This document shows, piece by piece, positions 11,134-40,084 of a DNA stretch of 64,000 nucleotides; the first letter of the stretch is position 1; the number at the start of each line of letters is the position of its first letter. The position numbers and the translations under genes were made by a program. Origin of the DNA: Candidatus Desulfofervidus auxilii. GTDB taxonomy: Bacteria; Desulfobacterota; Desulfofervidia; Desulfofervidales; Desulfofervidaceae. The stretch lies in contig NZ_CP013015.1 in the NCBI RefSeq assembly GCF_001577525.1, forward strand, positions 326,632-390,631. Direction: 5' to 3'. The notes beneath the pieces were generated by a model that was not told the DNA's origin, did not search any database, and saw only the letters and a list, made by a program, of their open reading frames with translations.

Positions 11134-11160
11134 TTAAGTGGAACAAAAAGTTCCACTTAA
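11134..11160. promoter_or_regulatory. palindromic operator, distal copy
   Basis: Perfect 11-bp inverted repeat TTAAGTGGAAC-N5-GTTCCACTTAA, about 130 bases upstream of a sigma-54 promoter. There is no T-tract, so an activator site is more likely than a terminator. It is probably bound by the Fis-type helix-turn-helix of the downstream regulator (inference). Confidence 0.72.
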
Positions 11161-11205: not shown

Positions 11206-11228
11206 AAGTGAAACAAAATGTTCCACTT
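11206..11228. promoter_or_regulatory. palindromic operator, proximal copy
   Basis: AAGTGAAAC-N5-GTTCCACTT, one mismatch from the distal copy, centre-to-centre spacing 70 bases. Two copies of the same dyad upstream of a -24/-12 element form a typical enhancer arrangement for a sigma-54 activator. Confidence 0.7.
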
Positions 11229-11277: not shown

Positions 11278-11293
11278 TTGGCATAGATATTGC
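11278..11293 (+). promoter_or_regulatory. sigma-54 (-24/-12) promoter
   Basis: TTGGCATAGATATTGC keeps the invariant GG and GC dinucleotides with exactly ten bases between them. It ends 16 bases before the ATG of the regulator gene, and the ribosome site AAGGAGG follows. Expression therefore likely depends on RpoN and on the activator, which may be the gene product itself. Confidence 0.78.
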
Positions 11294-11309: not shown

Positions 11310-13475
11310 ATGACAACTCCACGTATTTTAATTGTAGAAGACGATAGCTATATGAGAAACCAACTTAAGGAACTCCTTAAAAATGATTATCAAGTGTTTA
11401 CATCAGGAGATAGAGACGAGGCTTTAAGTGTTTTTAAATATACCAAACCAGATTTAGTGCTTCTAGATTTATATCTTCCACCAGATATTTATAGTAGCAA
11501 AATAGGAATGGATATTCTCCAACGCATATTAGAAATAAGGAATAATACCAAGGTCATTGTAATTACAGGCAGCAATGATAATAAAGATGCCCTTAGTGCA
11601 GTAGACATGGGAGTTTATGCTTATATTACCAAACCCTTCAATATTGACGATTTAAAAGTGCTGATAAAAGGATGTTTATATATACAAAAGCTTGAAAGAG
11701 AGAATAAGGCTTTGCATCAAGAATTAGAGAAAAGATGGAATTTCGAAGGTATTATTGGAAACTGTCCTCAGATGTGCCAGGTGTTCTCTATTATAAACAA
11801 AGCAGCCCCAACTGATTATACTATCTTGATTGAGGGAGAAACTGGGGTAGGTAAGGAGCTAATTGCCAGAGCCTTACACTCTCGAAGCCCTAGGAAAGAA
11901 GGTCCATTTATAGTAATAGATTGTACTGTTATCCCTGAAGGGCTTTTAGAAAGCGAACTCTTTGGCTATGAAAAAGGCTCTTTTACAGGTGCATATAGAA
12001 CCAAGAGAGGAAAGATAGAATTAGCTGAAAAAGGCACCCTATTTTTGGATGAAATTGGTGACCTTCCCATTTCCCTTCAGGCAAAGTTCTTAAGATTTTT
12101 AGAAGAATCGAAGATACAGAGGATAGGTGGGGTATCTCCAAAAAAGGTAAATACTAGGGTGATTGCAGCAACTAATAAAGATTTAAAATTAGGTGTGACA
12201 AAGGGTTCCTTTAGAGAAGATCTATATCATCGTCTAAACATGATATCTATTAAAATACCTCCCCTAAGAGAGAGGGGCAGTGATATATTACTTCTGGCAG
12301 ATTATTTCTTAAAAAAATATAGTGAAGGAAAAAGGCTTAGTTCAGAGGCAAAAAATGCTCTATTTCAGCACGATTGGCCAGGTAATGTTAGGGAATTGAA
12401 AAATAGGATTCAAAAGGCCATTGCTATGTCTTCGGATAACCTTATTTCTGCAGGAGATTTGGGATTGGAGACAAAAAATAGTTACCGCAATAAATCTTCG
12501 TTAAGGCATGCCAAGCAAGACGTAGAAAAAGAATACCTAATCACGGCCTTAAGAAACAATAAGGGAAATATAACCCACACAGCTCGGGAGCTAGGTACAC
12601 ATAGAATAGTTATCAGGAGATTGATGAAGAAGTATGGAATAAGTAAAGAGAAGTTTATGCCATCTTATAAAGGCCAATTAGAATTTCCAAGGAGAAATAT
12701 AATGTCTAAATTAAAGATATTGGTGGTAGAAAGTGACAAGGCTCTTAGAATTGAGTTGGTTTGGCACCTTAAAAAACATTATGAAGTGTTTGAAGCAGCA
12801 GATAGACATGATGCTCTTACCTATCTAAAAAAAGAAAAGAGGCCAGATGTCATTTTGCTGGAACTATATTTACCACCTAGAAGAGATACTTTAGAAGATG
12901 GTTTTTATGTATTACAAAAATTCAAAGAAAGGATACCAGAGGCTAAGGTAGTTATTATAACCACTGCTACAGAAAAGGAGGTTATGGATAAGGCTAAGGA
13001 AGAAGGAGCCGATGCCTATTTGCAAAAGCCTTTTGAACTGGAGGAACTAGAAGATACCATTGAAGAGCTCTCTCAGTCTGTTCCCCAGGGTAAGGAGAGA
13101 AGGAAATATTGGAGGGATGATGAGGGAAAGGGTATAGGTGTTGAGAAAAGGAAGCAGTGGCGGGTAAGCTGTGAATTGCCTATTCAATGGGTCTTAGTTG
13201 AGGGCGAATCTCCATTAAAGGGAGAAACAAACACCATTGATATAAGTTATAGTGGAGTATCTTTTCCTGTAGAAACCCCCATTGCTCCTAATAGCGTATT
13301 GGATATGAAGTTATCCTTACCATCCCATTTGCCAAAACTAGTAGTTAAGGCTGTGGGAGTAGTAAGGTGGTTAGTAAAGCTTAAAAATGAGTATACATAT
13401 AGGCTGGGAGTTGAGTTTGTAGAAATGAAATATGCTCATAGGAAGGCTATTGCAGATTATATTTACAAATTGTAG
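11310..13475 (+). CDS. PrsR-like sigma-54 activator fused to degenerate receiver and PilZ domain
   Basis: 721 residues. Receiver 1 has acidic E10-D11-D12 and phosphoacceptor D53 in LLDLYLPP. An AAA+ domain (about 145-385) has Walker A GETGVGKE, GSFTGA in place of the usual GAFTGA, and FLDEIGDLP. A Fis-type helix-turn-helix follows (ITHTARELGTHRIVIRRLMKKY). Then comes a second receiver from Met465 whose acceptor position is Glu518 (LLELYLPP). The C-terminal PilZ domain has RKQWR and DISYSG, matching the c-di-GMP motifs RxxxR and DxSxxG. N-terminal parts resemble PrsR at 24214. It probably controls polysaccharide genes with c-di-GMP input (inference). An internal start may also yield the REC*-PilZ half alone. 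Confidence 0.87.
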   Translation: MTTPRILIVEDDSYMRNQLKELLKNDYQVFTSGDRDEALSVFKYTKPDLVLLDLYLPPDIYSSKIGMDILQRILEIRNNTKVIVITGSNDNKDALSAVDMGVYAYITKPFNIDDLKVLIKGCLYIQKLERENKALHQELEKRWNFEGIIGNCPQMCQVFSIINKAAPTDYTILIEGETGVGKELIARALHSRSPRKEGPFIVIDCTVIPEGLLESELFGYEKGSFTGAYRTKRGKIELAEKGTLFLDEIGDLPISLQAKFLRFLEESKIQRIGGVSPKKVNTRVIAATNKDLKLGVTKGSFREDLYHRLNMISIKIPPLRERGSDILLLADYFLKKYSEGKRLSSEAKNALFQHDWPGNVRELKNRIQKAIAMSSDNLISAGDLGLETKNSYRNKSSLRHAKQDVEKEYLITALRNNKGNITHTARELGTHRIVIRRLMKKYGISKEKFMPSYKGQLEFPRRNIMSKLKILVVESDKALRIELVWHLKKHYEVFEAADRHDALTYLKKEKRPDVILLELYLPPRRDTLEDGFYVLQKFKERIPEAKVVIITTATEKEVMDKAKEEGADAYLQKPFELEELEDTIEELSQSVPQGKERRKYWRDDEGKGIGVEKRKQWRVSCELPIQWVLVEGESPLKGETNTIDISYSGVSFPVETPIAPNSVLDMKLSLPSHLPKLVVKAVGVVRWLVKLKNEYTYRLGVEFVEMKYAHRKAIADYIYKL
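12689..12704 (+). promoter_or_regulatory. internal ribosome site and start codon
   Basis: AAGGAG, seven bases, then ATG (12702-12704), in frame with the surrounding gene (Met465) and placed exactly at the start of the second receiver (MSKLKILVVESDK). Either it is the relic of a separate downstream gene now fused, or it still starts a 257-residue REC*-PilZ protein. Confidence 0.6.
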
Positions 13476-19175: not shown

Positions 19176-21464
19176 ATGATGAATTTAGGTAGGAAAAATT
19201 TAGCAATCTTAAGTACTTTTCTAATATGTATGGTGCTTATTTCAGTAGCCTGCAGCAGTCCTGCAGAAAAAAGGGCAAGACATCTAGAGAAGGCCCAAAA
19301 GTATTTTTCAGAGGGTAAATATAAGGAAGCCATCATTGAGTATAAAAATGTGCTCAAGTTAGACACCAAAAATGCTAAGGTCTATTATAAATTAGGACTT
19401 TGCTACCTGAATACAGGAAAAGGAAGGGAGGCCTTTAAGTCACTTTCGGCGGCGGTAGAATTAGACCCAAAGAATCTGGATGCCCATCTTAAACTGGGAA
19501 ATCTATTTCTGCTTTCCAGGCTCCCAGAAAAGGCAAGGGAAAAGGCAGACTTGGTCCTTTCTCAGGAGCCAAAAAACCTGGAGGCCCTTATCCTTTCAGG
19601 GAATGTTTATATTCAGAAAAAGGAGATAGATAAGGCCATAGAAATCTTTAAAAAGGTGCTAGAATTAAGACCTAAAAGGCAACAAACCTATTTTATCTTG
19701 GCAACTTTAGTTTCTTTAAAAAGAAAATTTACAGAGGCTGAAAGATATTTAAAGAAAGCTATAGAGATAAATCCCCAGGAAATTAGTGGATATCTGACAT
19801 TAGGAAATTTTTATATGGCCACCAAAAGGCCACTTTTGGCAGAAAAGGCTTATAAGTCAGCCATAGGAATTGAGCCTAAAAATTTCAAGCCTTATGTAGT
19901 GTTAGGAAATTTTTATAGACATCAACGGGAATTCAAAAAGGCGGAAGAACTATATTTAAAGGCTACCGAGATTGACCCCAATGATGTCCGCCCATTTATG
20001 GTACTAGGGGAATTTTATAGGACAAGGGGTGAGAATGAAAAGGCAATCAAGCACTACAATAAGGCCTTGGCATTAAATCCCAAACTTAATTTGGCAAAGA
20101 TAAATCTTGGGCAAATCTACCTCAAGCAAGATAAATTAGATAAGGCCTCAACTGTTATAGAAGAGATATTAAAGGAAAGACCCAAAGACCTGGGGGCAAG
20201 ACTCCTTAAAGGTCAACTGCTTATAAAGCAAAGGAAAATAAGTGAGGCTACAGAACTCCTTCAGACACTTATAAAGGATGAGCCAAAGTTTAGTGAGGCC
20301 CACTATTTTCTAGGGCTGTGCTATATGAATCAAAGAAATATACACCAAGCTAAGGCAGAATTTAATGAGGCAATAAGTTATAATCCTATGCTCTATAAGG
20401 CAAATCTCATTTTAAGTGAAATTCACCTTAGAAGTGGGGCCTTTGATCTGGCCATAGCGCATGCAAAAAGGGTGTTAGAAATAAGACCTCAAGAGATAAA
20501 TGCCCATGTTGTTATAGGAAATGCCTATTTATATCAAGGAAATTTGGATAATGCCTCTTTGGAATTTAAAAAGGTCATCAAAAAAGCACCTGAAAATCCT
20601 GTGGGGTATTACAGATTAGGACTGGTTTTAGAGGCCCAAAAGAGATATGATAAGGCACTCTCTCAATTTGAAAAGGTACTGAAATTAAATCCTAGGTCTG
20701 TAAAGGCCTTAAGCCATATAGCTACCATATACCTTTATAAGAAAAACCCCGATAAGGCTATTTCAAAGTGTAAGGAACATTTAAAAATAGTCCCTGATAA
20801 CCCATTTATCTACAGTCTTATGGGAAATATCTATGCTTCAAAAGGTGATACCAAAAATGCAGAAAAGCAATTTAAAAAGGCACTTTCTATCAATCCCAAT
20901 CTCCTTTCACCTTATATGGGTCTGGCAGGCCTGTATGTGCAAAGTAAAAAGGTTGGTCAAGCCATAGCTCAATGTAAAAAAGCCATTGAAAAGAATCCTA
21001 AGTTTATTCCGGCACGCATGAATTTGGCCCTCCTGTATCAAACCAAGGGAAATGATAAACAGGCCATAGAGGAGTATAAAGAGATTTTAAACATAAATCC
21101 TAAATTTGCACCTGCAGCCAATAATTTGGCCTGGCTGTATGCAGAAGGTGGTGAAAACCTGGATAAGGCCCTAAATTTGGCACAGACTGCCAAGCAGCAG
21201 TTGCCTGATAACCCAGCGGTTTCTGATACCTTGGGATGGGTGTATTATAAAAAGAATATGTCTGATGGGGCTATCTCTCTTTTTCAAGAAGCACTAGAAA
21301 AATTACCCAATCATCCCATTATTAATTACCATTTAGGTATGGCATACTTTAAAAAAAGGGAAAAGGAGCTGGCAAAAAAGTTTCTGACAAAGGCCCTTAA
21401 TATCAACCAAAAATTCCCCCAGGCAGATGAAGCCAAACAAGCCCTCAAACAACTAAAAGAATAA
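19176..21464 (+). CDS. prsT: PEP-CTERM system TPR-repeat lipoprotein PrsT
   Basis: 762 residues. The signal peptide has lipobox ISVAC (Cys26). About twenty tetratricopeptide repeats then run to the C-terminus (repeating pattern A-x3-Y-x2-A-x-L-x-P). This gene is the usual partner of prsK and prsR beside exosortase A, and it lies 35 bases before prsK here. The role of PrsT is unproved; a scaffold in the periplasm for export or protein sorting is the common inference. It is slightly shorter than the roughly 900-residue family members. Confidence 0.92.
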   Translation: MMNLGRKNLAILSTFLICMVLISVACSSPAEKRARHLEKAQKYFSEGKYKEAIIEYKNVLKLDTKNAKVYYKLGLCYLNTGKGREAFKSLSAAVELDPKNLDAHLKLGNLFLLSRLPEKAREKADLVLSQEPKNLEALILSGNVYIQKKEIDKAIEIFKKVLELRPKRQQTYFILATLVSLKRKFTEAERYLKKAIEINPQEISGYLTLGNFYMATKRPLLAEKAYKSAIGIEPKNFKPYVVLGNFYRHQREFKKAEELYLKATEIDPNDVRPFMVLGEFYRTRGENEKAIKHYNKALALNPKLNLAKINLGQIYLKQDKLDKASTVIEEILKERPKDLGARLLKGQLLIKQRKISEATELLQTLIKDEPKFSEAHYFLGLCYMNQRNIHQAKAEFNEAISYNPMLYKANLILSEIHLRSGAFDLAIAHAKRVLEIRPQEINAHVVIGNAYLYQGNLDNASLEFKKVIKKAPENPVGYYRLGLVLEAQKRYDKALSQFEKVLKLNPRSVKALSHIATIYLYKKNPDKAISKCKEHLKIVPDNPFIYSLMGNIYASKGDTKNAEKQFKKALSINPNLLSPYMGLAGLYVQSKKVGQAIAQCKKAIEKNPKFIPARMNLALLYQTKGNDKQAIEEYKEILNINPKFAPAANNLAWLYAEGGENLDKALNLAQTAKQQLPDNPAVSDTLGWVYYKKNMSDGAISLFQEALEKLPNHPIINYHLGMAYFKKREKELAKKFLTKALNINQKFPQADEAKQALKQLKE

Positions 21465-21499: not shown

Positions 21500-23542
21500 A
21501 TGTCCATTTTCCCACTCATAAATTCTTTAATATGTGCTATTTTGGCCATTTTTGTCCTTTCTAGAAATGCCAGACATCCACTGAACCTCAGCTTTTCATT
21601 GGGGCTGTTTTCTCTTGGTTTTATAGAAATGGCTAATTTTATAGCACTGCGTAGCATCCTTCCCCTGTTCTGGATACGTATGGCCAGGGTAGGCGAATGT
21701 CTCCTTCCAGCAAACTGGATACTCTTTATCTATGCATTTGCCAAAAAAGATAGGCAAATTTTGACCAAGGATAAGCTGGTCATCTCTATTTTCTATGCTA
21801 CATCTCTATTTTTTATGGCCTTTTCTCAAAGGGAATTTTTCATTACGCCCTTAAGCGACTTTCTCTTTAGGATTGAAAGGTTAGGCTATTATTTTTATCT
21901 CTTTCTCTGTTTTTCCATGATATTTATCCTTTCTAAGTTAGAAGGCATCCTTTTTTCTTCAAAAGGGGCAGTAAGGTGGCAAATAAAATATGCCATGCTT
22001 GGCTTGGGCTCTATATTTGCCTCTTTTATCTTTATTACTGGACAGAGGCTGCTTTACAGGACAATTGATTTACACTTTATCCCTATCCATTCAGTAATTA
22101 TCCTCATCTCCCTTTCCCTTATTGTATTTGCCTCAGTAAGACGCCACTTTTTGGATGTAGATGTATTTGTGTCCCGTTATGCAGTGTATACTTCATTGAC
22201 GGTAATATTTGTAGGCATATATTTCCTTTCCTTAGGTCTAATGGGGGAATTGGCAAGAAAACTTGGCATAGATTTAGGATACTTATGGGAAATACCTATC
22301 ATCTTTATTTCTGTCCTTATTTTATCAATCGTTTTGCTCTCTGATACAGTGAAGCGGAAGGTAAGATACTTTATATCCAGACACTTTTATAAGGATAAAT
22401 ATGACTATAGGGCTCAGTGGCTAAATTTTTCAAACAGGTTGAGCAACAAATTTACTGCATCTGAGATATGCAATGCTACATTAGAGCTTCTATCTGAAGC
22501 CATGTATGTAAAGCAGCTATCAATCTGGCTTTATGATGAAGAAAATGAAAGTTTGCAAATAGCCTCTTCCAAAGGGCTTGCCAAAGTCGACTTTAAAGTA
22601 GAACATAAAGATTTCATCTCCTCCTTAAAAAACAGACCTTTTATCCTTAAAGAATCTCTTAAAAAGGAAAATAGCAAAGTTTATGAAGAAAATAGAGAAT
22701 TTTTTGAAAAGGCAAGGGCTTCACTGTGTGTGCCTATGATAGTTGGGGATAATTTCATAGGTATAATTGCTATTGGACCTGAATTTAGTGGCAAGGGATT
22801 TATTCAGGATGACTTTGATTTATTAACATCCATTGCTGCTCAGGCCTCAAATGCCCTACTAAATGTCCGTCTTTCTGATAAGCTGATTCAAATCAAAGAA
22901 CAAGAGACCTTTCATAGACTATCTTCTTTTATAGTGCACGACCTTAAAAACCTGGTTTATACATTATCTTTGAGCCTTCAAAATGCCAGAAAATACTTTG
23001 ATGAGCCTGAATTTAAGAAGGATTTATTAGATACCATCTCTAACAGTGTCTCAAAGATGAAGGTCTTAATGGCAAAGTTATCTTCAGCTCCAAGAGGGCT
23101 TAAAATTAATTTGCAGCAGATAGATTTAAATAACTTAATCAATGAAGTTGTGGATAGCACTAAACTAAATAGCAAGGACATAAATATCAAGAAATATTTT
23201 GGAGATATACCTGTTATAAAAGCCGATAAGGAGCAATTAAAGAAAGTAATTACAAATCTTATGCTAAATGCCTTGGAGGCCAATGGAAATAGAGGAGAAA
23301 TAAAAATCAATACATATTCCAGAAACGGATGGGTAGTCTTTTCTATTTCTGATAATGGACCAGGGATGGATAAAGAATTTAAAGAAAAGTATCTTTTCAA
23401 ACCATTCCACTCTACAAAAAGCAAGGGGTTAGGCATTGGACTCTTTCAATGCAAGACCATCATAGATGCCCATAAAGGAAAAATTGAGGTAGAGAGTGAA
23501 AAATGGAAAGGCTGCACCTTCACGGTTAAACTCCCGGTTTGA
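21500..23542 (+). CDS. prsK: PEP-CTERM system histidine kinase PrsK
   Basis: 680 residues. About eight N-terminal membrane helices run to residue 275. A GAF-like domain follows (about 300-460; SLCVPMIVGDNFIGIIAIG). The phosphoacceptor helix is SSFIVHDLKNLVYTLSLSL. The ATPase domain has NLMLNALEANG, DNGPGM and GLGIGLFQCKTII. PrsK works with PrsR and RpoN to turn on PEP-CTERM protein genes (known from Zoogloea-type systems). The cognate prsR lies downstream, but a Uma2-family gene now separates the pair. Confidence 0.93.
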   Translation: MSIFPLINSLICAILAIFVLSRNARHPLNLSFSLGLFSLGFIEMANFIALRSILPLFWIRMARVGECLLPANWILFIYAFAKKDRQILTKDKLVISIFYATSLFFMAFSQREFFITPLSDFLFRIERLGYYFYLFLCFSMIFILSKLEGILFSSKGAVRWQIKYAMLGLGSIFASFIFITGQRLLYRTIDLHFIPIHSVIILISLSLIVFASVRRHFLDVDVFVSRYAVYTSLTVIFVGIYFLSLGLMGELARKLGIDLGYLWEIPIIFISVLILSIVLLSDTVKRKVRYFISRHFYKDKYDYRAQWLNFSNRLSNKFTASEICNATLELLSEAMYVKQLSIWLYDEENESLQIASSKGLAKVDFKVEHKDFISSLKNRPFILKESLKKENSKVYEENREFFEKARASLCVPMIVGDNFIGIIAIGPEFSGKGFIQDDFDLLTSIAAQASNALLNVRLSDKLIQIKEQETFHRLSSFIVHDLKNLVYTLSLSLQNARKYFDEPEFKKDLLDTISNSVSKMKVLMAKLSSAPRGLKINLQQIDLNNLINEVVDSTKLNSKDINIKKYFGDIPVIKADKEQLKKVITNLMLNALEANGNRGEIKINTYSRNGWVVFSISDNGPGMDKEFKEKYLFKPFHSTKSKGLGIGLFQCKTIIDAHKGKIEVESEKWKGCTFTVKLPV

Positions 23543-23573: not shown

Positions 23574-24125
23574 ATGGCTATAGCAATTCCAAAAAAGAAG
23601 AAATATACCTATGAAGATTATGCAAAGCTTCCTGAAGGCGCCCCTTATCAACTTATTGGTGGAGAATTAATTATGACCCCAACTCCCACACCCTATCATC
23701 AAATAGTTTCGCGAAAAATAGTGTCTTTATTAGTTCAGCATGTGGAAAAGAATGATTTAGGAGAAGTTCTTTATAGCCCCATAGATGTTTACCTAACCGA
23801 AGAAGATACCTTTCAACCCGATATTATCTTTATTTCAAAAGAAAGGCTTAATATCATTGGTGAAACTAAAATAGAAAGTGCCCCAGACCTTATAATAGAA
23901 CTCCTCTCTCCTGCTACTGCCTATTACGACCTTGGTAGAAAATATGAAGTCTACGAAAAAAGTGGTGTAAGGGAATACTGGATTGTCCATCCAGAGAGAA
24001 AAAGCATAGAAATTTATCAAAATGAAGGTAGTCAATTTAGACTCATCCAAACAGCAAAAGAAACAGGTGCTATCAATTCTCTGGTTTTAAAAGACCTTGA
24101 AATTAACTTAGAAAAGGTATTCTAA
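23574..24125 (+). CDS. Uma2-family (DUF820) putative endonuclease
   Basis: 183 residues of the PD-(D/E)xK-fold Uma2 family, abundant in cyanobacteria and some other phyla. The motif order is YQLIGGELIMTPTPTPYHQ, FQPDIIFIS, APDLIIELLSPATAYYDL, EVYEKSGVREYWIVHPE. This gives the acidic and lysine residues expected of the nuclease core. It is near-identical in its first 45 residues to the gene at 39533, with a similar AT-rich leader, so one is a duplicate. Its position between prsK and prsR is unusual. The cellular role is unknown. Confidence 0.85.
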   Translation: MAIAIPKKKKYTYEDYAKLPEGAPYQLIGGELIMTPTPTPYHQIVSRKIVSLLVQHVEKNDLGEVLYSPIDVYLTEEDTFQPDIIFISKERLNIIGETKIESAPDLIIELLSPATAYYDLGRKYEVYEKSGVREYWIVHPERKSIEIYQNEGSQFRLIQTAKETGAINSLVLKDLEINLEKVF

Positions 24126-24213: not shown

Positions 24214-25596
24214 ATGGACGAAAAGGATAAGATTCTGATTATTGAAGACGATAAAGGCATTGCAAAGCAAATTAAATGGGCCTTATTGAAAGATTACCAC
24301 GTCCTCATTGCCCATGATGTCCCCATTGCCCGTCAGCTTTTAAAAAAAGAGAGACCAAAGGTTATAACCTTGGACTTAGGCCTTCCACCTAAACCTGACA
24401 GCCCTGAAGTAGGTCTTGGGCTTTTAGAAGATATATTAAAATTTAACCCTCATACTAAAGTCATTGTTATAACCGGAAATACAGAAAAGGAGAATGCACT
24501 AAAGGCCATTCAGATGGGTGCCTATGACTTCTATTATAAACCTGTAGATGTAGATGAGCTTAAGGTTATCATAAGGCGTGCCTTCCATATATATCGGCTT
24601 GAACATGAAAACTTAGAATTTCTTCAAAGAAAGGCTGAGGGAGATAAATTTTTGGAAGGTCTAATAGGCCAAAGCCAAAAGATGCAAAAAGTTTTTTCTT
24701 TGGTAAGGAAGGTAGCTCTAACTGACTTTCCAGTATTAATCCAGGGAGAAAGTGGAACAGGAAAGGAATCCATTGCCAAATCCATCCACCTTTTAAGCCA
24801 GAGAAAAAATAATCCTTTTGTGGTAATAAATTGCGGTGCTATACCAGAGACCTTACTAGAAAGTGAACTCTTTGGTTATGAAAAGGGTGCATTTACAGGG
24901 GCACATATTACCCGTGAGGGAAAACTTGAACTTGCCCAAGGAGGAAGTGTCTTTTTGGATGAAGTCTCTGAATTGACACTCCCACTTCAAGTAAAATTAC
25001 TTAGATTCCTTCAGGAACACACTATAGAGAGGATTGGAGGAAGAAGGGTTATAAAATTGGATGTCCGAATTATTGCTGCCACTAATAAGAATCTAAAGCA
25101 GGCAATTGAAAAGGGAGAATTTAGAGAAGACCTTTATTATCGTTTAAACACACTAAATATTGAACTTCCTCCCCTCAGAGATAGGGGTGAAGATATATTA
25201 ATTCTGGCAAAGTATTTCTTGTATCAGTATTGTAAAGATATTGGGAAAAAACCCATAAATTTTTCAAAAGAGGCTATAGATGCCCTCTGTCAGCACAATT
25301 GGCCAGGAAATATAAGGGAGCTTCAAAATAAGATAAAAAGGGCAATCATTACGGCAGAAGGAAATTATATTCTCCCTAAAGATTTAGAATTTGATTCAGA
25401 TTCTATATCCTATGGGATACCTCTAGGTCAGTTGTCTCTGAAAAAGGCAAGGGAAAGATTTGAAAAAGGAATAATAATTAAGGCCTTAAGGAAAAATAAT
25501 TATAATATTACTCACACTGCTACTGAACTTGGTATTAGCCGAGCCAGTGTTTATGAATTGATTAGAAAATATGACATAAAGATAAAAACTTTCTAA
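24214..25596 (+). CDS. prsR: PEP-CTERM-box response regulator PrsR (sigma-54 activator)
   Basis: 460 residues. The receiver has E11-D12-D13 and acceptor D54 (LDLGLPP). The AAA+ domain has Walker [22 protein letters not shown] for sigma-54 contact, and [12 protein letters not shown] Fis-type helix-turn-helix ([22 protein letters not shown]) ends the protein. It is the cognate partner of PrsK. Three copies of the predicted binding box begin one base after its stop codon and lead into a PEP-CTERM gene, a direct regulatory link visible in sequence. Confidence 0.94.
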
Positions 25597-25613
25597 TGTC
25601 AGAAAACTTTACA
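25597..25613. promoter_or_regulatory. PEP-CTERM box, copy 1
   Basis: TGTCAGAAAACTTTACA, an imperfect dyad of form TGTCA-N7-TTACA. It begins one base after the prsR stop codon and about 160 bases upstream of the sigma-54 promoter. Likely PrsR enhancer site. Confidence 0.75.
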
Positions 25614-25620
25614 ATTTAGG

Positions 25621-25637
25621 TGTCACAATACTTTACA
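25621..25637. promoter_or_regulatory. PEP-CTERM box, copy 2
   Basis: TGTCACAATACTTTACA, same dyad as copy 1 with two changes, 24 bases further on. The 24-base step is close to two helical turns, compatible with side-by-side dimers. Confidence 0.72.
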
Positions 25638-25685
25638 GTTAAAATCCTTGCTAGATGCCATTTTTAGCCTGTGAGCCAATTTTGG

Positions 25686-25702
25686 TGTCAGAAAACTTTA
25701 CA
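25686..25702. promoter_or_regulatory. PEP-CTERM box, copy 3
   Basis: TGTCAGAAAACTTTACA, identical to copy 1. It lies about 55 bases upstream of the -24 element, a usual distance for a sigma-54 enhancer. Confidence 0.75.
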
Positions 25703-25756
25703 AAAATGGGTTCAAATCTAAAATCAAAAATCCAGTATTATCAAGGGTTTTCAATC

Positions 25757-25772
25757 TTGGCACAGATATTGA
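25757..25772 (+). promoter_or_regulatory. sigma-54 promoter of the PEP-CTERM gene
   Basis: TTGGCACAGATATTGA has a consensus -24 half (TGGCAC) and correct spacing. The -12 GC is GA here, which predicts a weaker promoter. The ribosome site AAGGAGGGG and ATG follow. The same GATATTG core occurs in the promoter at 11278. Confidence 0.68.
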
Positions 25773-25801
25773 AGTATATGGCTATATAAGGAGGGGAGAC
25801 G

Positions 25802-26635
25802 ATGAAAAAGATTATTCAAATTCTGATTACTGCTGCTTTTGTGCTATTTTTTGGAATTTTTGAGGTTTCTATGGGAGTTCCTATAGGATATGTCATTGAT
25901 GGAGATGTAAGTGACTGGGGTATTGACTTGTTTGCTGCTTCTAGTAAGGGTTACCTCGACAGTCATCTCCCATCTGGTGGTTTGGATATTGATTATATAA
26001 CAGAGGATAATGCTTATAATGAGGGCGGTTGGCAGTATGTGGGACCAGGTTGGACTTATCAGAATTATTTTGATGCAGAAGCCATTTATTTCGATAATGA
26101 CCAGTATTATGCCTATATTGCTATCATACAGGGTTTGCCAGAAGAGGGATATGATCCTCCGGGAAACCCAGTAAATGGTAACTATTCTTATATGTTCAAA
26201 CCAGGCGACATCGCAATAGATGTGGACGGAGACTCCGTTTTTGAATACGGATTAAAGGTAAGGGGCGAAGGTGGATTTCAACAAGGTTATTTATACAGCG
26301 TAAGTGGCTGGAAAAACGTTTATTATTCGCAGCATAATATAGCCAATCCGTGGGTCATCGATGCAGGCACTGAAAAGGGAGCAGTAAGTTTTGTTTATAG
26401 CACAGAACAAAACAGTCATTATGTGTTGGAGGCGGCTATTCCCCTGGATTTATTGGGCTTAGATGCTAATACTGCTCATTCCCTGCAAATCCACTGGACC
26501 CAGGAGTGTGGAAATGATTATCTTACCCTAAAGGCAAATGTAAACCCTGTTCCTGAGCCAGCTACTATGTTATTGTTGGGCATTGGCCTAGCTGGCTTAG
26601 GGCTATTTGGAAGAAGGTTTAGGAAAAAGGTTTAA
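25802..26635 (+). CDS. secreted PEP-CTERM sorting-domain protein
   Basis: 277 residues. Signal peptide about 1-25. A beta-rich exported domain opens GYVIDGDVSDWGIDLF, resembling family-9 carbohydrate-binding/DOMON-like modules (tentative). The C-terminus is a textbook PEP-CTERM tail: VPEPATM, then a 17-residue hydrophobic helix (LLLGIGLAGLGLF) and the basic end GRRFRKK. The exosortase at 30482 should process it at or after the PEP motif. Upstream boxes make it a direct PrsR/RpoN target. It is the only PEP-CTERM substrate I see in the window. Confidence 0.93.
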   Translation: MKKIIQILITAAFVLFFGIFEVSMGVPIGYVIDGDVSDWGIDLFAASSKGYLDSHLPSGGLDIDYITEDNAYNEGGWQYVGPGWTYQNYFDAEAIYFDNDQYYAYIAIIQGLPEEGYDPPGNPVNGNYSYMFKPGDIAIDVDGDSVFEYGLKVRGEGGFQQGYLYSVSGWKNVYYSQHNIANPWVIDAGTEKGAVSFVYSTEQNSHYVLEAAIPLDLLGLDANTAHSLQIHWTQECGNDYLTLKANVNPVPEPATMLLLGIGLAGLGLFGRRFRKKV

Positions 26636-29571: not shown

Positions 29572-30495
29572 ATGTTAAATGCCTTAACCATAGATGTAGA
29601 AGACTATTTTCAGGTAGAAGCATTTGCTTCAAGAATAAATTATAATGAGTGGGATAATTATCCTTGTCGGATAAAACAAAACACACAAAAAATTTTAGAT
29701 ATTTTAGATGATTATCAAATAAAAGCCACTTTCTTCTGCTTAGGTTGGATTGCAAAAAGAAGTCCTTCTTTAATAAAAAACATTGCTCAAAGAGGACATG
29801 AAGTTGCCTCTCATGGCTATGCTCATCAGCCAGTTTATAAACAATCTCCAGATATTTTTATGCAGGATATAAGGAAAACAAAACAAATCCTTGAAGACAT
29901 CATAGGACAACCTGTTATTGGTTATCGTGCTCCTACTTATTCCATTACTCAAAAAACACTTTGGGCATTAGAAATTTTAGCTGAAGAAGGCTATAAATAC
30001 GACTCAAGTATTTTTCCCATCAAACACGATTTATATGGTATTCCCAATGCACCTAGATTCCCATTTAACGTTCACACGTTAAAACGTGCTAACGTGTTTA
30101 CGTGTAAACGTTCTAACGTTCTAACGTGCAAACGTGCAAACGTGCAAACGTTTTTTGAATTTCCTTTAACCACCCTACGAATTTTAAATATAAACATCCC
30201 CATTGCTGGTGGTGGTTATTTTAGAGTATTTCCTTACATATTTATTAAAAATGCTTTGAGGCACATAAACTTAAAAGAGAAACAGCCATTTATTTTTTAT
30301 CTTCACCCCTGGGAATTAGACCCTGAACAACCTCGCATAAATCACTTACCTTGGCGTTCTCGCTTCAGACATTACGTAAATTTAAGAAAAACCGAAGGCA
30401 AATTTAGGAAACTTTTATCGGATTTCAGATTTAGCACAGTTTTAAAAGTACTAAAACAACACAATAGTAAATTAGGCACTCATGAAGGCTATTAA
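29572..30495 (+). CDS. polysaccharide deacetylase, exosortase-A locus type
   Basis: 307 residues. Carbohydrate esterase 4 (NodB) fold: the metal/catalytic motif TIDVEDYFQVEAF at the N-terminus, ATFFCLGWIA, HEVASHGYAHQPVY, and YRAPTYSIT. The C-terminal YLHPWELDP is typical of the PEP-CTERM locus subfamily. The core enzyme is interrupted by about 29 residues (166-195) made by an in-frame array of 8-bp repeats, giving an 8-residue protein repeat (NVFTCKRS, NVLTCKRA). The ATG follows the repeat array directly with no ribosome site. Whether the enzyme remains active is open; all main motifs lie outside the insert. Confidence 0.88.
   Translation: MLNALTIDVEDYFQVEAFASRINYNEWDNYPCRIKQNTQKILDILDDYQIKATFFCLGWIAKRSPSLIKNIAQRGHEVASHGYAHQPVYKQSPDIFMQDIRKTKQILEDIIGQPVIGYRAPTYSITQKTLWALEILAEEGYKYDSSIFPIKHDLYGIPNAPRFPFNVHTLKRANVFTCKRSNVLTCKRANVQTFFEFPLTTLRILNINIPIAGGGYFRVFPYIFIKNALRHINLKEKQPFIFYLHPWELDPEQPRINHLPWRSRFRHYVNLRKTEGKFRKLLSDFRFSTVLKVLKQHNSKLGTHEGY
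30067..30154. repeat. 8-bp repeat array inside a coding sequence
   Basis: Eleven consecutive 8-bp units (AACGTTCA, CACGTTAA, AACGTGCT and so on) lie inside the deacetylase gene. Three units make 24 bases, so the protein shows an 8-residue period. At each junction where a final T would create TAA in frame (after units 2, 5 and 8) the unit ends in A, so the frame stays open. Confidence 0.93.
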
Positions 30496-31321
30496 ATCAA
30501 TTCCATTTGTTAAACAAAATTACATATTTTTTGTCTTTTCCTTGATGTTGTTTGTAATCCTTTTTAATCCTGTTTTTGCACAGTTATGTCATCTATGGTT
30601 TTATGATCTGAACAACTCCCATGGTATACTGGCTCCTTTCATCTCTTTATATTTCATTTGGATTAAAAAGGATGAAATTAAACACACTCCACTTCAGATT
30701 TCTCATTTAGGCCTTGGGGTAATGATTTTTGGCCTTTTACTTTATCTCCTGGGTTTAATAGGATTTATGGCCTTCTTACAGAATCTTTCTTTGGTAATTA
30801 CCTTCATTGGCCTCACTTGGTATCATATGGGAACCAGATTTACCCGAAAGATTTCCTTCCCTTTATTTATCCTCTTCTTTATGGTGCCTATTCCTATTTC
30901 AATAACTGAGATGTTTTCTTTTCCATTAAAGCTTTTGGCAACTAGGATGTCTGAATTCGTTTTAGGACTACTTTCTATACCTGTTTTAAGAGAGGGCAAT
31001 TTACTTCATCTTCCTAATGGCACGCTAGAGGTAGCTAAGGCCTGCAGTGGGTTGAGGTCCTTTATCTCTTTTACTATGTTAGGACTTATCTTTGCCTATC
31101 TTTTAAAGAATAAAATAAGGAAGTTGATCATAATTTTGGCTATATTACCTATAACCATTTTTACCAACATTCTCAGGATTACACTGACTGGGAGTTTGGC
31201 TTATTTTGTCACTCCTAAGATGACAGAGAGCTTCCTTCATGAGTTTTTAGGCATCTTTTCCTTTGTGTGCGGTTTTTCTCTTATGTTTTTATGCTATTAC
31301 AAGATTTCACTAGAAAAATGA
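30482..31321 (+). CDS. exosortase
   Basis: 279-residue multi-pass membrane transpeptidase that recognises PEP-CTERM tails. The catalytic triad is visible: Cys188 in VAKACSGLRSF, Arg232 in TNILRITLTG, and His253 in FLHEFLGIF. About eight membrane helices are present. Most exosortase A proteins carry the EpsI domain fused at the C-terminus; here it is a separate next gene overlapping by four bases. The start overlaps the deacetylase end by 14 bases. All partners nearby are of the exosortase-A type. Confidence 0.93.
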   Translation: MKAIKSIPFVKQNYIFFVFSLMLFVILFNPVFAQLCHLWFYDLNNSHGILAPFISLYFIWIKKDEIKHTPLQISHLGLGVMIFGLLLYLLGLIGFMAFLQNLSLVITFIGLTWYHMGTRFTRKISFPLFILFFMVPIPISITEMFSFPLKLLATRMSEFVLGLLSIPVLREGNLLHLPNGTLEVAKACSGLRSFISFTMLGLIFAYLLKNKIRKLIIILAILPITIFTNILRITLTGSLAYFVTPKMTESFLHEFLGIFSFVCGFSLMFLCYYKISLEK

Positions 31322-39532: not shown

Positions 39533-40084
39533 ATGGCAATAGCAGTTCCAAAAAAGAAAAAATATACTTATGAGGATTATGCTAAGCTCCCTGAAGGTGC
39601 TCCCTATCAGCTCATTGGAGGAGAATTAATTATAACCCCTGCACCAACACCTTATCACCAAAGAATTTCTAGAAAAATTGAGTTCTTACTAATAGAGTAT
39701 GTAGAAAAAAATGAACTAGGTGAAGTATTTGATGCGCCTATTGATGTTTATTTTGAAGAAACAGAAACTTATCAACCAGATATTATTTTTATTTCAAAAG
39801 AAAGACTTAATATTATTGGTGAAACAAAAATAGAAGGCGCACCTGATTTAATAATAGAAATCCTTTCCCCTTCTACTGCTTATTATGACTTAAAGAAAAA
39901 ATTTAAAATTTATGAAAAACACGGTGTTAAAGAATACTGGATTGTAGACCCAGAAGAAAAAAGCATTGAAATTTATCAAAACGAAGGTGGCCAATTTAGA
40001 CTTATCCAAACAGAAAAAGAAACAGGCACAATTAATTCTCTGTTTTTAAAAGGTTTTGAACTTAACCTAGAAAAAATATTTTAG
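39533..40084 (+). CDS. Uma2-family (DUF820) putative endonuclease, second copy
   Basis: 183 residues, same length as the gene at 23574 and nearly identical over the first 45 residues (two to four changes). Core motifs are conserved: YQPDIIFIS, APDLIIEILSPSTAYYDL, YEKHGVKEYWIVDPEEKS. No ribosome site is evident in either copy. This copy is flanked on both sides by 8-bp arrays, whereas the other is not. The middle part differs more (VEKNELGEVFDAPIDVYFEE), so duplication was not very recent. Confidence 0.85.
   Translation: MAIAVPKKKKYTYEDYAKLPEGAPYQLIGGELIITPAPTPYHQRISRKIEFLLIEYVEKNELGEVFDAPIDVYFEETETYQPDIIFISKERLNIIGETKIEGAPDLIIEILSPSTAYYDLKKKFKIYEKHGVKEYWIVDPEEKSIEIYQNEGGQFRLIQTEKETGTINSLFLKGFELNLEKIF

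Follow-up and report, generated by a model that had tools for sequence, protein, structure and literature searches.

The arrangement at this locus raised the question of whether the short interval behind prsR is the control region through which PrsR acts on a sorted PEP-CTERM protein, and whether its motif leads to other genes under the same control. The original prediction held that TGTCA-N7-TTACA occurs three times between the prsR stop codon and a PEP-CTERM gene and is followed by TTGGCACAGATATTGA, and this was read directly in the sequence of the window, the whole 64-kb stretch of DNA that was analyzed (Table 1). The last base of the prsR stop codon, TAA, is 25596, and box 1 begins at the very next base. 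The boxes follow one another at start-to-start steps of 24 and 65 bp, and 55 bases lie between the end of box 3 and the TGG of the sigma-54 element, within the 32 to 92 nt taken for this spacer when counted to the TGG (the left edge of the published motif 2 may differ). The element has GG at -24 and TTGA rather than TTGC at -12. The exact box pattern had three matches in the window, all of them at 25597, 25621 and 25686. With one mismatch allowed, there were nine matches against 4.68 expected, so that just the exact sites stand out. We consider it very likely that 25597-25772 serves the PEP-CTERM gene at 25802 as its PrsR-driven enhancer and promoter, and that the block was copied to two further loci, where it would have recruited two cohesin-like genes.

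Table 1. Features of the prsR locus, the cassette copies and the upstream region of the second PrsR-like gene. Positions are those of the window except where prefixed G000:C1, which are positions in the genome.
Feature	Position	Strand	Basis or remark
Palindromes AAGTGGAAC-N5-GTTCCACTT	11136-11158, 11206-11228		Upstream of second PrsR-like gene
Sigma-54-like site of second PrsR-like gene	11278-11293		TTGGCATAGATATTGC
prsT, TPR lipoprotein	19176..21464	+	TIGR02917 482.3 bits, cut-off 312.2
prsK, histidine kinase	21500..23542	+	TIGR02916 439.5 bits, cut-off 300
prsR, NtrC-type response regulator, 460 aa	24214..25596	+	TIGR02915 598.7 bits, cut-off 502.6
Cassette (prsR tail, boxes and promoter)	25480..25800	+	Two further copies in genome, 93% identical
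PrsR box 1 (predicted)	25597..25613	+	TGTCAGAAAACTTTACA; sequence; 20.96 bits, matrix from other genomes
PrsR box 2 (predicted)	25621..25637	+	TGTCACAATACTTTACA; sequence; 17.71 bits, same matrix; 24-bp step also in G009 locus L162
PrsR box 3 (predicted)	25686..25702	+	TGTCAGAAAACTTTACA; sequence; 20.96 bits, same matrix
Sigma-54 -24/-12-like promoter	25757..25772	+	TTGGCACAGATATTGA; sole departure from TGGCAC-N5-TTGC consensus is the -12 C
PEP-CTERM protein gene, 277 aa	25802..26635 (ATG at 25802)	+	End NPVPEPATMLLLGIGLAGLGLFGRRFRKKV; TIGR02595 25.3 bits, cut-off 16; PF07589 33.1 bits
Exosortase, probable sorting enzyme for PEP-CTERM product	30482..31321	+	TIGR02602 176.4 bits, cut-off 105.55
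Cassette copy 2	G000:C1:2106315-2106569	-	93% identical to window cassette
Cassette copy 3	G000:C1:2433446-2433773	-	93% identical to window cassette

The regulator, the putative enhancer array and the target thus lie side by side at one locus. PrsR, PrsK and PrsT scored over their family cut-offs in one cluster, RpoN is encoded in a single copy in the genome, the array stands before a PEP-CTERM gene, and its boxes match those found before PEP-CTERM genes elsewhere. At the level of sequence, this supports the predicted DNA-level link from PrsR to a sorted protein, a link already made in 2006 in a published account of PEP-CTERM upstream motifs (PMC1569441). In the mechanism we propose, PrsK would phosphorylate PrsR, the product of the gene just upstream of the array, and phosphorylated PrsR would bind the three boxes as 17-bp imperfect inverted repeats. 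It would then touch RNA polymerase-sigma-54 at 25757-25772 through looping of the DNA and drive expression of the PEP-CTERM gene, whose product would then be exported, with the gene at 30482 supplying the exosortase that sorts it. This exosortase fell below the cut-off for XrtA (exosortase A), scoring 185.3 against 208 with TIGR03109. A single-sequence structural model of the window PEP-CTERM protein had a mean pLDDT of 37.2 and was set aside.

The core of boxes and promoter is known; what is new is that the cassette was copied together with a prsR tail and that two cohesin/dockerin-like operons follow the copies. Haft et al. (2006), in their description of the motifs, assigned to PrsR a PEP-CTERM upstream motif 1 combined with a sigma-54 motif 2; motif 1 is there a 17-nt sequence with a TTTACA end, sometimes repeated and about 63 nt before the sigma-54 site, in genomes with PrsK/PrsR/PrsT (PMC1569441). 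The window likewise has a 17-nt TTTACA-ending motif, a sigma-54 site, a PEP-CTERM gene and PrsK/PrsR/PrsT. It differs from the motifs as described there in having three TGTCA-form boxes, GA at -12, an array directly behind prsR, and a block copied together with the prsR tail. The Desulfovibrio vulgaris protein DVUA0057 is, like PrsR here, a PrsR-type regulator adjoining exopolysaccharide genes, but it is encoded on a plasmid; it is reported to have bound five predicted PEP-CTERM targets in vitro, with enrichment in DAP-chip, which supports the published link (PMC3333781). The published account of pepA from Aquincola tertiaricarbonis, a different gene in a different genus, describes an RpoN-dependent PEP-CTERM gene that shares with the window gene a TGGCAC -24 element and a predicted enhancer upstream (PMC9850573).

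The boxes were scored with a matrix derived from other genomes, which was meant to avoid circularity. Its source was the upstream regions of 42 PEP-CTERM-like ORFs at other loci, searched for TTTACA; a few of these ORFs are doubtful, and one (L122), which belongs to this genome, yielded no site. Eighteen of the 25 TTTACA 17-mers start like TGT(C/T)(G/A), two A-initial ones counted in, and these made up the matrix, the other seven being dropped by eye for a start unlike (T/A)GT(C/T)(G/A). Of the 42 ORFs, 16 had at least one kept box upstream. The 18-site matrix ranked the three window boxes first, second and third, with the next best place in the 64 kb at 11.5 bits, and the chance expectation at 17.71 bits or more was 0.083 matches per 64 kb (60 simulated first-order Markov windows). 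A matrix from all 25 17-mers, unselected, still gave the three boxes the first three ranks. All three are 17-nt motifs with a TTTACA 3' end as judged by the other-genome matrix rather than by the published logo. The motif common to the genomes is TGTC(G/A)-N6-TTTACA, of which the TGTCA form of the original prediction is, by this comparison, a local variant.

A related array was found in genome G009, whose PrsR is 72% identical: three boxes at steps of 24 and 78 bp are followed by the sigma-54-like TTGGCATGGTTATTGA, which also has TTGA at -12. The window and G009 arrays aligned with a score of 60 against a maximum of 44 in 500 shuffles, the boxes themselves supplying much of the score. The G009 array precedes the start of an ORF that scores over the cut-off for choice-of-anchor N; the C-terminus of this ORF, and with it any sorting signal, would lie past the end of the contig, and a family search of G009 for the PEP-CTERM domain found none at E <= 0.05. 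At another locus (L075), prsR, two boxes, a sigma-54 site and a PEP-CTERM gene follow one another in that order. Seven of the 21 PrsR loci scanned had no nearby box at 12 bits or more. Box pairs exactly 24 bp apart, as in the window, were observed at L135 (about 715-755) and L162 (562-602), and such pairs may reflect a set spacing at which two PrsR dimers bind.

The matrix was applied to selected stretches of this genome, and the genome-wide counts rest on the exact TGTCA-N7-TTACA pattern. In the genome, which is a single contig of 2,540,211 bases, there were 14 exact boxes, compared with 4 matches to the reversed control pattern. Nine of the 14 form three clusters of three with identical 24- and 65-bp steps, one in the window and the others at 2106408-2106513 and 2433548-2433653, and each cluster precedes one of the eight PEP-CTERM genes over the family cut-off. 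Box hits were thus not random with respect to PEP-CTERM genes, all nine clustered boxes preceding such a gene. The five single boxes are at background level (four matches for the reversed control); four of them fall within ORFs, and the fifth, which is intergenic, has no PEP-CTERM gene. The high single match at 722099 (16.34 bits) was rejected; it falls within an ORF, and the stretch around it contains no sigma-54-like TGGCAC. With one mismatch allowed, the genome gave 211 matches against 168 for the reversed control, and nothing beyond the exact sites emerged among the matches listed (100 forward-strand places). The joint pattern of TTACA, gap and sigma-54 site gave 12 matches against 5 for its reversed control; three of these were the cassettes, and eight of the other nine were in ORFs. 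As a key to the rest of the regulon, the exact motif found three promoters, all copies of one another, and no broad independent regulon appeared.

The remaining five of the eight PEP-CTERM genes over the cut-off were without a box, the best matrix score in their regions being 7.5, and they sit in two clusters at about 591-594 kb and 1909-1912 kb. Far from the window, at G000:C1:1642580-1644136, the genome encodes another exosortase, which is longer (518 aa) and to which the boxless VPIP-type PEP-CTERM genes may belong.

On sequence grounds, the three box clusters are to be counted as one cassette copied and not as three independent cases, because they lie in 93%-identical copies that include the last prsR codons. 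A search of 58 other genomes gave no match to the cassette at 25480-25800. In both copies the end of prsR precedes the boxes. The tail in copy 3 is in frame and matches the last 53 PrsR residues at 69% (gaps counted), and that in copy 2 consists of about the last 17-20 prsR codons, preceded by a stop. All three copies of the cassette have GA in place of GC at -12. In copy 2 the GG at -24 is changed to GA (TTGACACGGATATTGA), and this promoter may be weak or dead. Downstream of its promoter, copy 3 has 37 bases that match the end of the PEP-CTERM gene in the window (81%, E 3e-4). The variable columns across the three copies numbered 2 of 51 in the boxes (one ambiguous gap placement), 4 of 56 in the prsR tail and 4 of 54 in the spacer, which is too little divergence to compare constraint. 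We infer that the block was copied out of the prsR locus and that deletions and fusion to new genes followed, in this order.

The PEP-CTERM proteins behind copies 2 and 3 are 77% identical to each other over full-length frames and are unlike the window protein except at the PEP-CTERM end. With the Cohesin family (PF00963), their genes scored 19.3 and 22.5, just below the gathering threshold of 24.1, and a PDB sequence search with the cohesin-like protein of copy 3 returned no cohesin, its one match being weak and unrelated. Each cohesin-like gene is followed by a gene for a large protein with a dockerin-like end. The ends of these proteins (926 and 941 aa) scored 19.2 and 18.4 with Dockerin type I (PF00404), below the gathering threshold of 22.9. 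For the 941-aa protein, from copy 3, the C-terminal 79 aa gave weak PDB matches, the best of which included 5lxv_B (E 4.8e-4) and 2y3n_B (E 0.0047), chains that we take to be dockerins, among many calmodulins. A scrap before the prsR tail of copy 3 (G000:C1:2433886-2433954) codes for VITVLDARKLVLLCTRPRCATE, identical to the end of the dockerin-like protein of copy 2, which suggests a former tandem unit. Literature searches for PEP-CTERM together with cohesin and dockerin, and for Desulfofervidus with PEP-CTERM, found no papers in the library searched.

It could be argued that the copies are relics of a former second prsR locus with a decaying promoter, a view that rivals just the copying part of our explanation. 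The prsR tail would then be all that remains of that locus, as would fit the damaged -24 of copy 2 and its tail, of which roughly the final 20 codons remain behind a stop. We think this unlikely, since copy 3 retains all its boxes, GG at -24 and an undamaged gene for a cohesin-like PEP-CTERM protein, and since the two downstream proteins are 77% identical over full-length frames. In the preferred reading, the block including the 3' end of prsR would have been copied to two loci and would now stand before the two cohesin-like PEP-CTERM genes, which would belong to the PrsR regulon if the copied promoters are active. It is quite possible, and we propose it tentatively, that the regulon of this two-component system gained members when the end of the regulator gene was copied along with the enhancer-promoter that follows it, the prsR tail remaining as a fossil tag, and that two operons, each pairing a cohesin-like protein sorted by exosortase with a large protein whose end is dockerin-like, thereby came under PrsR, giving a regulated surface assembly.

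The recognition helix of PrsR is SRASVYEL, which fits the SRxxxY(D/E)L seen in most other PrsR proteins compared; at most other PrsR loci compared the helix reads (S/A)RPTLYD(L/I). A regulator encoded beside an exosortase on a related N. vulgaris plasmid, presumably corresponding to DVUA0057, has SRPTFYDLL, and the matrix gave no match at 14 or more on a 31-kb stretch of that plasmid. Another sigma-54 activator of the same genome might instead read the boxes. One candidate is encoded at 11310-13475, a second PrsR-like protein with a PilZ domain appended. This protein passes TIGR02915 (506.8 against 502.6), and seven proteins of the genome match the PrsR model at E <= 1e-120, so that another activator could share the boxes. 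We nevertheless regard this as very improbable: the recognition helix of the second protein is THRIVIRRL, not SRASVYEL, and it has a candidate operator of its own, AAGTGGAAC-N5-GTTCCACTT, which occurs as two copies ahead of a sigma-54-like site in front of the gene for this protein. This arrangement suggests self-activation, and a genome search that allowed up to 3 mismatches located the palindrome at no other place. That a second PrsR-like regulator in the same cluster has a different candidate operator is a caution against deducing the operator from the family model alone.

It is hardly credible that the repeats belong to a repetitive or mobile element, dispersed and without regulatory function, whose spread left three copies (about 250-330 bp, 93% identity) in this genome and no copy in the 58 others, given that all three copies are correctly oriented before PEP-CTERM genes with a sigma-54-like site, that box and promoter match unrelated genomes without the cassette, and that the prsR tail explains the origin. 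With PrsR as the probable reader of a copied cassette, the three promoters and their genes can be named as candidates for a direct binding study, and the cassette with its prsR tail would illustrate one concrete way for a sigma-54 regulon to gain members.

Uma2-like genes were also observed at these loci. Two are in the window, at 23574-24125 (between prsK and prsR) and 39533-40084, and are 79% identical to each other; two others follow the dockerin-like genes, one at each copied locus (G000:C1:2101941-2102495 and 2429091-2429642), and are 84% identical to each other.
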